Positions 14,127 to 25,633 of a stretch of DNA of 64,000 bases are shown in pieces. Position numbers and translations under genes: made by a program. How positions within the stretch are numbered: the first letter of the stretch is position 1; each line of letters opens with the position of its first letter. The notes under the pieces are model-generated. The model was given only the letters and a program-made list of their open reading frames with translations. It was not told where the DNA came from and ran no database searches. Source of the DNA: Symbiodinium sp. CCMP2592. Lineage: Eukaryota; Sar; Dinophyceae; Suessiales; Symbiodiniaceae. The stretch spans positions 74,300 to 138,299 of the forward strand of contig CAJNDT010000488.1 of the NCBI GenBank assembly GCA_905221615.1. The letters run 5' to 3'.

Positions 14127-14150
14127 ATGTAAGAGTGGCTTTATTAAACC
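14127..14150 (+). repeat. Left terminal inverted repeat
   Basis: This 24-nt sequence starts ATGTAAGAGTGGC and is preceded by TA. It matches the reverse complement of 25610-25633 except at three positions (A/T, A/G and T/A at TIR positions 5, 6 and 18). Confidence 0.82.
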
Positions 14151-14292
14151 GGGTGACAATTAAAATATTCCCCGGGCCAGAATTTCCGGGCGCAAGAGGA
14201 GTTTAAAGGCAAGGGCAGATTTGGCCAAACAACTGATCATAATTTTCCAGTCGCAATAATAAACGGGGTGACAATTAAAATATTCGGGCTCG
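14144..14292 (+). repeat. Left subterminal repeat, two copies of an AACGGGGTGACAATTAAAAT motif
   Basis: The motif occurs at 14144-14170 (with CCGGG variants) and again at 14255-14285, each followed by a short GC-rich stretch. The core AAACGGGGTGRCAAT also recurs once per unit in the 273-bp array of intron 1 (18961, 19234, 19507, 19780). Subterminal repeats of this kind are often transposase-binding sites; that role is inference. Confidence 0.6.
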
Positions 14293-14488
14293 GAAATCCC
14301 CAAAATTCTACAGACGAGGCTACGTATTTAGCAGAGACTCAAACAAAGAGGACCCTAACCCAGCCAGCAGAGTGCAGTTCGGCACAGACGACACTGAACT
14401 ACTAGCTCGCAGAGTGCAGTTCCAGACTGTTTCAACTACACCCCTCGGCAGATCCAATGGCATCCAGAGATCTGTGAAACAGAAGAAC
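14151..14488. other. Left non-coding end of the transposon
   Basis: Holds the subterminal repeat motif and the 3' flank of the transposase gene. From about 14355 rightward CAGA becomes frequent, including two similar copies of GCAGAGTGCAGTTC (14369 and 14409). Confidence 0.6.
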
Positions 14489-17400
14489 TCAGGCTGCCTT
14501 AGGCGGCAGACCCAGCTCCAGACGCAGTTTGTTCAGCAGATACCGCTCCAGCTTCGCAGGATCACAGTCCAAACATCCACTTTGCCAGTGGCATCTGGAA
14601 CAGACGCCCAGGCCTGTCAGACGGACGTGCTCGATGCGAGATTTGTCCTCTTCAGACAAATCACTGGCCTCAGGCTCCTTGTTCAGAGTGAGGAGCTGCT
14701 TGGCCAGATTCCAGAGCTTCAGGCCTGTGGCAGAGGCCTCTGCAGACTTCGCTGCCAGTTTTTCAGAGCGCAGGCGGTTGCTCTTCAGAAGCTTGTCCAG
14801 AGACTTCTCCTTGTCCAGAAGCTCTTTTGAGAGCTTGGCCTGCTCTCCAGACAGCTGGATGAGCCAGGCCTTCAGCTCAGACATGATCTCCAGAACCAGC
14901 TTGTGGCGAGAGCCATGAGAACAGGGTCCTTCCAGACAGAGAGGGTACAGGATCCAGAGCATGTTGGCCAGAACCCAGAAGCCGCACTCGTCAGACTTCT
15001 GGGTGCCAGAGGAGCTTCTCTCTGGCAGAGTCTCTGCCGGCAGAAGCAGAGACAGAAGCCTGGCAGCGTTCACAGAGCACTCCTCGTGCTTCTCAGACAG
15101 GCTGTCCAGGTACTTCACAGAGAAGCTTTCCGAGAGGTCTTCTCGCTGCAGGACCAGAAGGGTCCAGTGGTTCGGAGAGTGCCCCCAGACGGGCACGAAC
15201 AGCAGCTTGTTCTCAGAGCGAAGTCTGTCCAGAGCAGTCTGCAGAAGCTCGGGGCGGTCGTGTTCGGCGAGGAGCTGCCCAGAGAGCTTCGGGTCCACCA
15301 TGCAGATCTTGTTGTCCAGGAACCAGTTCTCGTCGGAGTCGCTCAGATTGTACCGCAGAAGTTCCCAGCCGTACCGAAGATGCTGGTCCAGAAGCATCTG
15401 CGGGAAAGACTTCTTGAACTTCAGCAACTCCACAGGCTCCGCAGCGAAGAACCCACCAGAAGCCTCCAAAAAGAGGGCTGAGCCACCGCAAGCTCGCAGA
15501 ACAGTCTGCTTCAGCTCCCTCTTCAGGCGCAGATTCTTCCACTTCTTCGGAGTCTGCCAGAGTGGATCAACCTCGCAGACGTCCTTGTCAGAGAGGATCA
15601 CGGTGGCACAGGCATCCCCTACACCTGAGCAGACAATGAAACAGAAACTGTCTTAATTATTGAAGAAAATAAATTAAATGCGACTCAGTGGCCAATCAGA
15701 GACACCTGGTTCGTCAGAAGGTTGTGCATAGAGCACTTGCCAGACTTGCCACAGGTGTGGTCCTCTCGCAGAATCCTGCAGACTCGGCCGTAGAGAGGGC
15801 CCTTCGTTGCCTCCTTGAGCTCAGAGGCCTTCTCAGCGACGGGGTCAGCAGGAGCAGGGCCAGGAACCAAAGCAGAGTCGCCGGAGGGCTTGTCGTCCAG
15901 AGCCTTGGCCTTCGCCAGAGCCTTCGCAGCGTGGGCCAGGGCCGTCTTTTTCTTTTGCTTCAAAACGGCCTTCTTCACGACAGAGGGCTTCTTCTCAGAG
16001 GCTCTCGGCACCAGACGTTGCAAAGCTTGCTGTCGGGACATCTGTGTCAGACGATGCCTCATGGCTTCCAGAAGCTTTCCTCGAAGCTTCCGCTTGGCCA
16101 GAGTGATCATCTGCTTCACGTCTCGCTTGACAGTTTTCTTGTGCAGAGTGTCTTTGTCCGCAGAGAGCTGCTTCTGCCAGGCTGCACGTTGCAGGTCCAG
16201 AGAAAGTGTCAGGACGCCAGATTCGATGCAGGGGAGCTGCAGATCCAGTGGCATCTCGTGCACGTTCAGAAGGGCCTCGGAGACCTGGTTTTCCAGAGCC
16301 TCGTCCTGCGAGTCCGAGTGGTAGTAGCTCCATTCCACCAGATCCGCCACGACTTTGGCTCCGTGCAGAGCAGACCAGTCCGGCTGGGCTGGAATGCCAG
16401 ATGCATCCAGCCAGGAGTAGCGGTCCTTCAGCCAGGCTGGCTTCGTCCTTGCAGAACCTCGGCTGCCAACATGTCGAGGAAAAAAAAAGCTAGAGATTAC
16501 TTGAAGCTGGAAAAATAATTAATTAGAGGAGAGCAGAGCGGCCCATGGAGGCGCCGCAGCAGTCTTCGTCTTTCAGAGGCACCAGAGTCTGCTTGGAGAA
16601 GTCCGGTCTGTAAGCCAGCAGACCCTTTCGGCGAAGACCAGACACGATCCAGTCTTTCGAGGCCTGTCGCTCAGACATCTTCGTCTGAGCTTGCACCACA
16701 GCCGTCGCCATGTCCAGATGGCTCGCTCGCCAGAACTCCTTCTCGCCAGCTGCCAGCAGAGCAGTCTGACCGGCATGCCTGCAGGCACGTATGGTTTAGG
16801 ACAGTGTAATTAAACCGGACATCAGAGAAGGGAAGCAAAAAACAAAATGATTAGAGCAGCCTCAGGTCGTCCATGGCAGACCTTGCCAGACTTTTGAAAG
16901 ATCTGGCATAGTCTGTGTCAGTCAGTTGCAGACTCGCAGTCAGTTTCGGTCCAATGACCGTCTGCAGACTCTGCGAGTAGAACAGAGACTCTGCCCCAGA
17001 GACAGACCAGGCCGCCGCGAAGCAGTCGCGGACATGGACAGAGGCAGGTGCCAGAGCAGCCAGCTCCTCCTGAGCCCAGGCGAAGATGATGCCATCCACA
17101 TTCGCAGAGGGCTGGCTCATCAGACTGATCTGGCGAAACAGAGAAGGATCCTTGTCCCGGGCCTGCCTCCAGCCACGGAGCAGATTGCCAGCAGAAGAGC
17201 CTGCTTTGCGGCAGATCATCTTGCCAGAGAACTCAAACGTCTCGTCTCGCAGAAATCGACCAGAGCTGTCGATGTTGTTCAGACGAGCGTGAGAGCCGTG
17301 CACCACCAGAAGACCAGGCAGAACTTGCCCGCTCAAACCAGACTCGCCCTCCAGAGCAGGGTCTTTGCAGAGGCCGAACAGAGCTTGCCTGGCCTCGTAG

Positions 17401-25371: not shown

Positions 25372-25508
25372 CTATTAATTACTATTACTACTATTACTAC
25401 TATTACTACTATTACTACTATTACTACTATTACTAATATTACTACTACTATTACTACTATTACTACTACTACTACTACTAATTATTATTACTACTATTAC
25501 TACTAGTA
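25372..25508 (+). repeat. TTACTA microsatellite near the right end of the transposon
   Basis: A run of ACTATTACT-type units. It separates the last CAGA-dense block from the right terminal 100 bp. Confidence 0.93.
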
Positions 25509-25595
25509 TACTAGGCCCAGAGCAGGCCAGAGGTTTACTGTTGCCACCCTGACCCCAGACCCTCCCCCAAGAGACCCCCGCGCAAAACAACCTCA

Positions 25596-25611
25596 GGGGG
25601 GGGGGGGGGGG
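25596..25611 (+). repeat. G16 homopolymer abutting the right terminal repeat
   Basis: Sixteen consecutive G bases directly inside the right terminal repeat. Length may be unreliable in the assembly. Confidence 0.9.
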
Positions 25612-25633
25612 TTTATTAAAGCCACTCCAACAT
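25610..25633 (-). repeat. Right terminal inverted repeat
   Basis: Reading leftward on the minus strand it starts ATGTTGGAGTGGC and is followed outside by TA at 25634-25635. Its inner end merges with a run of 16 G (25596-25611), so bases further inward cannot be compared with the left end. Confidence 0.8.

Follow-up and report, generated by a model that had tools for sequence, protein, structure and literature searches.

A CAGA word on one strand of a dinoflagellate transposon: a candidate subfamily-specific self tag

Introduction

Why would a single four-base word fill one strand of an entire transposon, exons and non-coding DNA alike? The question arises in a 64,000-nt stretch of Symbiodinium sp. 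CCMP2592 (assembly GCA_905221615.1, contig CAJNDT010000488.1, C488:74300-138299 in our searches), here called the window. The isolate is named S. tridacnidorum in a genome paper (PMC8045281). The window contains an 11,507-bp transposon (14127..25633, genes on the minus strand) whose plus strand is packed with CAGA. A sequence-only reading of this DNA had proposed a nucleic-acid-level code. We analysed the window together with copies and relatives of the element found in the whole genome (1.098 Gb, 5383 contigs). Our comparisons suggest that selection maintains the word in this transposon lineage as a self tag that differs by subfamily and is read by a co-evolving factor, probably on sense RNA; we put the probability of this at roughly one in two.

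Results

A one-stranded excess persists after composition controls

The CAGA-saturated zone runs from 14355 to 25365 on the plus strand (TCTG on the gene strand) and is interrupted by arrays at 18796-19968 and ~21480-22907. We counted 370 plus-strand CAGA in the 8.49 kb of array-free element, where 36 would be expected at the frequency of the flanks (219 CAGA and 172 TCTG in 51,491 bp). Dinucleotide shuffles of the array-free element (n=100) contained 125.2 ± 9.6 CAGA, while the reverse word, TCTG, occurred 57 times vs 46.3 in the shuffles. On the gene strand of the copies examined, TCTG recurred roughly once per 23 nt, both in exons and in non-coding parts. The coding sequence held 172 copies in 4134 nt against 88.9 in synonymous shuffles (z 16.9), which placed TCTG at the top of the 4-mers scored, with the next at 6.8. 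The sequence-only reading would have been refuted had the excess vanished after codon and dinucleotide correction; it persisted. TCTG also fell in all three codon phases (67/16/89), as that reading had stated.

Recounting individual stretches gave the same values that had been counted by hand for 15001-15600 (24 CAGA, 7 TCTG) and for the flank stretch 5401-6000 (3 and 1). For 23401-24000 the single TCTG was correct, and CAGA numbered 28 rather than 29. The bin 16801-17400 held 26 CAGA and 6 TCTG. The tandem arrays are mostly skipped, as had been claimed, though in the 22-bp satellite it is the reverse word that is found (12 TCTG vs 5 CAGA in 22201-22800). Subterminal words were few: three in the left 203 bp and three in the 96 bp at the right end. 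A longer consensus around CAGA was considered and rejected, flanking preferences being weak. Outside the element one 600-base bin, 31201-31800, was CAGA-rich (14 CAGA; the next such bin had 7), and an AGAGAG microsatellite lies at 31142-31308.

Neighbouring words keep a minimum distance

Spacings below 10 nt made up 7% of those in coding sequence vs 23% for random placement, and 11% vs 25% in the non-coding arm. An order-3 Markov model placed 24.6% of spacings below 10 nt (minimum of 100 runs 17.6%), against 9.5% seen. Synonymous permutations with matched word number gave 14.5 ± 2.3% and 19.9 ± 4.0% against the observed 6.2% and 10.6% (40 runs each; the second exon's lowest run, 9.8%, was under the observed value). 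CAGA-CAGA pairs were found at 0.25 of expectation at lags 4-6 and at 0.40 at lags 7-9. The corresponding values were 0.80 and 0.99 for CAGA paired with CAG followed by C, G or T, and CAGA-TCTG pairs stood at 0.83-1.52 of expectation within 9 nt. Repulsion was thus confined to CAGA-CAGA, suggesting that only CAGA, and only in the one orientation, acts as the unit.

Substitutions between copies avoid the word

An exon-2 search returned at least 18 copies including that of the window, covering nearly the whole query at 85-100% identity, as well as two partial copies (719 and ~300 bases) and fragments. We fetched further stretches of eight divergent copies and of two distant loci. The left 4.3 kb contained between 168 and 182 CAGA in each of these eight copies. 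In the copy at C4090:327504-334504 (L018), which is truncated or rearranged, saturation is lost soon after exon 1 and the fetched stretch contained no saturated arm.

Words were defined on the window, so most substitution tests use one reference, and the six copies that were pooled (88-90% nucleotide identity over the left part) share ancestry. Third codon positions had changed in 68/1500 cases inside the word and 928/6367 outside it, second positions in 25/1076 vs 402/6790, and introns plus the 3' untranslated region in 24/264 vs 383/1875. Because of the shared ancestry a single-copy test matters: in copy L013 alone, third positions differed at 10/251 inside vs 147/1064 outside (p 2.5e-6). 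In exon 1 and gene A, the second gene of the element, 7 of 12 comparisons gave p<0.05, with 0-4 changes inside the word (six close copies, words taken from either sequence).

The arm repeats (24405..25360, plus strand), compared in four copies at 77-79% identity, gave a similar picture, with 5-7 changes in 193-219 bases inside the word and 91-121 in 606-701 outside. Whichever copy defined the words, this amounts to 2.6-3.4% vs 15-17%, a 5-6 fold lower rate, though the repeats are tandem-like and register errors are therefore possible. Tested by themselves, the right-arm repeat units showed weak conservation (316 of 5000 random draws equalled or exceeded it).

Words also turn over. Losses numbered 19-28 and gains 20-23 in the six copies, 10 and 9 in L021, and 6 and 12 in L023. 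At word sites the alternatives were CAAA (10), CACA (9), CAGC (9), CAGG (5), GAGA (5), AAGA (4) and 31 further words, giving 86 distinct site-word pairs, 37 words and 11 of the 12 one-step kinds. Compared with L013, losses were offset by nearby gains (36 of 2000 shifts as high).

The right arm (22910..25365, plus strand), which is without convincing coding sequence, carries 121 CAGA to 9 TCTG. Its segment 23080..24404 (plus strand) exists in two forms, one in the window and L020 and the other in L010, L012, L014, L016 and L024. The two forms gave no plus-strand blastn match of at least 60 nt at E 1e-3, and both held 38-44 words per kb and 6-8 reverse words. Equal saturation of non-homologous arms (1.2 kb) suggests that the word is held and not the sequence. 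A relic on C266 with internal deletions retained 56 words vs 111 in the aligned parts of the window, 42 of them shared, a count near that predicted from divergence alone (estimated as 0.764^4 of 111, about 38). Its remaining words differed less from the window than did other bases (19/223 vs 577/2450), as for retained ancestral words.

Host HSP70 loci are at background and related elements carry other words

Host genes were represented by HSP70 (12 loci fetched of 101 matches). All 12 loci were at background, with 13-25 CAGA and 14-31 TCTG per 3.5-4.8 kb, which speaks against host genes being as CAGA-dense as the element, the other outcome that the sequence-only reading had named as fatal. Four HSP70 reading frames showed no comparable word, the top z of 3.0-5.7 in synonymous shuffles belonging to a different word in each. 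The highest was GATC in gene L029 (C5051:2748957-2750750), with 40 copies vs 22.0 in the shuffles (z 5.7). HSP70 matches repeat at regular spacing on C5058, C4928, C515 and C5033, apparently as tandem copies.

A sister subfamily in the same genome, that of protein P0018, gave a different result. Its element on C3668 (~1154250-1164960) contained 347 CTCT vs 35 AGAG in 8.8 kb, a count that includes overlapping CTCTCT. CTCT was the top word of its exon in synonymous shuffles (41 vs 19.3, z 7.1), and the ratio of CTCT to the reverse word was 206:30 in coding sequence and 72:3 outside it. Three more lineages were represented by one copy each, of 3.5-4 kb. In a second CTCT lineage, on C602, CTCT again led the synonymous-shuffle ranking of the exon, which held 61 CTCT vs 29.1 in shuffles and two reverse words; the ratio was 88:14 downstream and 149:16 overall, and pairs at lags 4-9 stood at 0.11-0.16 of expectation. 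On C5261 the exon was topped by TGAG (55 vs 25.8, z 8.8), with ratios of 41:4 downstream and 96:11 overall and with lags 4-9 at 0.43. The palindrome CATG was also high in this copy (L054, C5261:219420-221408; 44 vs 26.2) and the commonest 6-mer was CATGAG, so that CATG and TGAG may be two words or one longer word.

On C617 the evidence for CTGA as the word is suggestive (33 vs 17.4, z 5.6; 33:11 over the reverse word), and CTGA was absent among the top strand-asymmetric words of the downstream piece. This signal is weak, since one host HSP70 gene reached z 5.7 for another word. The heptamer CTCTGAG contains CTCT, TCTG, CTGA and TGAG as successive registers; the words being few, this relation may be due to chance or common composition.

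The word is imprinted on codons and proteins

In three long open reading frame segments of the window, serine was encoded by TCT in 57/71 cases before G and in 17/43 cases before other bases. Two-fold codons ended in T in 18/22 cases before CTG and in 30/163 otherwise. Amino-acid choice bends to the word as well: V, A, D, E or G followed serine in 84/139 cases and followed T, N, Q, P, K or R in 121/404.

We scanned 13 proteins for the imprint of all 256 words using protein sequence alone. TCTG ranked first in the window protein, P0002, P0003, P0005, P0011, P0013 and P0015 (S. natans), and it came no higher than rank 21 in P0008, P0016 and P0018. CTCT headed P0018 (z 2.8) and was second in P0016 (z 2.9), both weak signals. 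Among residues differing from the window protein, TCTG came first in P0015 (543 residues) and P0003 (168) and was low in P0008, P0016 and P0018; CTCT was first in P0016 and outside the top six in P0018. Protein dipeptides had led us to score P0008 and P0016-P0018 as having no signature; DNA of the P0018 lineage then showed CTCT in its place.

Conservation at the protein level was suggestive in three pooled close copies: leucine in T|CTG changed in 2/242 cases vs 12/275, and serine in TCT|G in 5/176 vs 18/189. No effect was seen in partner residues (13/177 vs 70/1021; 19/243 vs 169/2521). The effect was absent in P0002/P0003, and DNA copies were used instead.

Structure of the element

The ends at 14127 and 25633 given by the sequence-only reading proved correct. 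They are TA-flanked inverted repeats, and blast alignments of other copies stop within ~22 bp of them. The left repeat (14127..14150, plus strand) is 24 nt long and has three mismatches to the right one (25610..25633, minus strand); the TA target duplications occupy 14125..14126 and 25634..25635. A 16-G run lies at 25596-25611, beside the inner edge of the right repeat. TA preceded all 13 recognised ends (two in the window, 11 in fetched pieces) and was present on both sides in 5/5 copies with both ends recognised, among nine looked at. Neither end was recognised in 5 of 16 fetched copy pieces (L017, L018, L019, L022 and L024). By its TA duplication and terminal inverted repeats, the element is predicted to insert at TA and to belong to the pogo/Tc5 (DDE_1) group of DDE transposons.

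The main gene, on the minus strand, has five exons and four GC-AG introns and encodes a predicted 1377-residue transposase-Ulp1 fusion, which differs from P0009 at nine of 1281 residues. Exon 1 (20030..20204) matches the N-termini of P0001 and P0010. Exon 2 (16861..18682) encodes a putative bipartite helix-turn-helix (HTH) and the putative transposase core, and is followed by exon 3 (16543..16778), exon 4 (15693..16457, boundary corrected against P0009) and exon 5 (14489..15624), which encodes the Ulp1 (C48)-like protease domain. The predicted protein runs from an N-terminal part through the HTH, which appears CENP-B-like, and a transposase-like core with near-invariant Asp to the C-terminal protease.

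Core Asp residues were invariant in SDQIPLW (17/17) and LTDTD (18/18 and 17/17). Most of this part of the structural model has a predicted local distance difference test (pLDDT) score below 50; model comparison gave no DDE-transposase core, which at such low confidence is uninformative. The catalytic set of Ulp1/C48 proteases is His-Asp-Gln-Cys. It was kept in 10/10 homologues with letters at all four columns, and the His column also in P0006. Two relatives carry the UniRef name 'Ubiquitin-like protease family profile' domain protein. Pfam PF02902 remained below the cut-off in the seven homologues scanned (E 0.042 for P0016, 0.13 for P0018) and gave no match for the window protein. Pfam scans returned no Mutator domain, and no PDB relative was found by sequence. 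Relatives sought in viral contigs and prokaryote genomes yielded nothing useful.

Intron 1 (18683..20029, minus strand, GC-AG) holds the word-poor 273-bp tandem array (18796-19968). Pieces of this array, detected as 38-bp matches, recur at ~273-bp pitch on contigs without a listed transposase match (C5273, C5166, C4960, C4112, C2223, C1890 and others), and the satellite may spread independently of the transposon. Gene A (20368..21330, minus strand, exon borders uncertain) is word-saturated and has homologues P0013 and P0019-P0023. The CAGA-poor 22-bp satellite array that holds some reverse word lies at 22227..22907. Ten flank open reading frames gave nothing above cut-off in Pfam, and telomere-type CCCTAAA/TTTAGGG stretches are scattered over the 64 kb (e.g. 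8388-8886, 49487-49561 and 62752-62916).

Discussion

A proposed self tag and the points against it

The nucleic-acid-level code proposed by the sequence-only reading gains support, in that the word ignores codon phase, is spaced, changes little between copies at silent and non-coding positions, and is equally dense on non-homologous sequence. Related elements of one genome carry different words, as would be expected of a co-evolving self-recognition tag. Purifying selection would hold the word, and a sequence-specific factor would read it at ~10 nt per site, a plausible footprint. Because host factors are common to all subfamilies of one nucleus, the specificity of the reader is probably element-encoded; the candidates are the product of gene A and the transposase-Ulp1 protein, co-evolving with the word. 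Since sites count on one strand only and sites in double-stranded DNA are orientation-free, the reader most likely acts on sense RNA (UCUG); another single-stranded or directional context is also conceivable. It would act during or after transcription, coating its own transcripts, with the right arm taken as putatively transcribed. Candidate functions are shielding from silencing, export, return of the transposase to its own family (cis-preference) and SUMO-related control through the Ulp1 domain.

A number of results weigh against a selected tag. First codon positions of the six copies showed no difference (84/1346 inside vs 486/6516 outside, p 0.12), and when loss of whole 4-mers was scored CAGA ranked sixth-lowest of 101 (12.5%; median 25.5%). 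Arm segments of close copies gave p<0.05 in 0/6 comparisons, and no compensation of losses by gains was seen against L019 (326 of 2000 shifts as high). Close CTCT copies showed no constraint difference (12/685 vs 52/4373; 10/765 vs 59/5380), these copies being too close. The reverse word CAGA was mildly high on the gene strand of the coding sequence (41 vs 28.2, z 4.2). In the protein-only scan TCTG ranked just 3-5 in P0006, P0007 and P0017, and among residues differing from the window it ranked 4-6 in P0005, P0007, P0011 and P0017. For gene A no domain could be recognised, and the structural model scored poorly (pLDDT 40). Finally, three short introns held 4 TCTG in 235 nt (17/kb vs 41.6/kb in exons, P 0.034), a density perhaps above composition (P 0.063). 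With ~40% of exon density in these introns an exon-only RNA signal is not clean, and we rejected that candidate.

Alternative explanations

The word could instead be a DNA-level tag against silencing or for chromatin, similar to the Arabidopsis VANC system, with gene A or the CENP-B-like domain binding the double-stranded word and unsilencing its own family only. We regard this as doubtful. Sites of this kind are orientation-neutral, yet the reverse word was near background (57 vs 46.3) and was not repelled by CAGA, and four bases are short for a DNA-binding protein. The related proposal that CAGA is a repeated binding site of the encoded HTH is possible, with nothing tying the HTH to CAGA; the strong one-strandedness fits sense RNA better.

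Under a second alternative, which the sequence-only reading had also offered as a mutational signature of replication, a lineage-specific mutational or templated process (editing, conversion or replication) writes the word. One-strandedness and TA depletion inside the block are consistent with it, and mutational sink words are also slow to change, so that low substitution alone is no proof of selection. We nevertheless consider it unlikely, as word-site alternatives span 11 of the 12 one-step kinds, the order-3 Markov model fails on spacing (24.6% vs 9.5% under 10 nt), the C266 relic has 56 words vs 111, and different words in one nucleus would require different mutators.

It appears similarly improbable that host machinery reads a sense-RNA signal (a splicing or export enhancer, N6-methyladenosine-like or serine/arginine-rich protein-like) required by weak GC-AG introns. 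The main gene has GC-AG sites at each of its four introns, the three short ones keep ~40% density, and density rises near 14330, ~160 nt past the stop codon, which would suit the end of a 3' untranslated region; however, the HSP70 loci fetched lack the word, and related elements that share the nucleus carry others. An artefact of codon usage, amino-acid composition or tandem duplication can be set aside: Ser-TCT and Leu-CTG are common codons here, but the excess survives synonymous and dinucleotide shuffles and holds in non-coding, non-tandem DNA.

A more specific version of the self tag can be offered tentatively. The subfamilies may share a tetranucleotide identity code that covers the whole sense strand at a minimum pitch of ~10 nt, with one word per subfamily, and that evolves by register shift. 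A modular, element-encoded single-strand reader would shift its register one base at a time; this is feasible because an old site already matches three of the four letters of the new word. If true, this would be an RNA self/non-self code evolving by register shift.

Selection on a nucleotide word would here prevail over the choice of codons, and even of amino acids, along the full length of a transposon. Alignments of the proteins of such elements, and statistics on their codons, would then carry non-protein signal, TCTG being recoverable blind from the proteins alone. The many copies and several subfamilies with different words are natural replicates that should make the reader findable. If the word is a self-recognition tag, it gives direct access to the question of how the transposons of large dinoflagellate genomes distinguish transcripts or DNA of their own from those of others.

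Comparison with known systems

Apart from the VANC analogue, our searches of open-access papers turned up no such word code. CAGA, TCTG and CTCT go unmentioned in the main text, as available, of the Symbiodiniaceae k-mer genome paper, as do 'Ulp1' and 'tetranucleotide' in that of PMC8045281.

Several systems resemble parts of what we describe. Among candidates in animals is Kipferl, whose GRGGN clusters guide Rhino in Drosophila; in the portions of the report consulted, how densely transposons carry a very short word goes with the binding of a factor, which in turn recruits a chromatin protein (PMC9531945). There the reader is a host protein, transposon sequences overall are no richer in the word than random genomic tiles, and those portions contain no strand or spacing rule (PMC9531945).

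The closest analogue is the VANC/VANDAL system, in which the elements of one transposon family contain a short word many times over and related families have different words. Bacterial DNA uptake sequences, Chi and KOPS are short words, oriented or over-represented, that run through coding sequence as the word described here does; they are genome-wide and host-level, with other densities and readers. The periodic An/Tn clusters of C. elegans are, as the word here may be, a sequence-level licence against silencing in transcribed DNA, but with an AT-rich 10-bp periodicity, no tetranucleotide and no element specificity. VANDALs are Mutator-like elements, with a Mutator transposase and a long target duplication, whereas our element has TA duplications and no Mutator domain.

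In the consulted part of the Arabidopsis work, each VANDAL family has its own short words, bound by its own anti-silencing protein (PMC5735166). These words have 8-9 bases, are non-coding, build up in tandem repeats and are recognised in double-stranded DNA (PMC5735166). The dinoflagellate word differs in having four bases, in lying on one strand with a minimum spacing, mostly outside tandem arrays, in a TA-inserting transposon, and in occupying coding as well as non-coding DNA (172 in 4134 nt of coding sequence). The logic that the two may share is self-recognition by a co-evolving transposon protein, and a self-recognition tag in Symbiodinium would mean that the VANC principle had evolved in parallel beyond plants.

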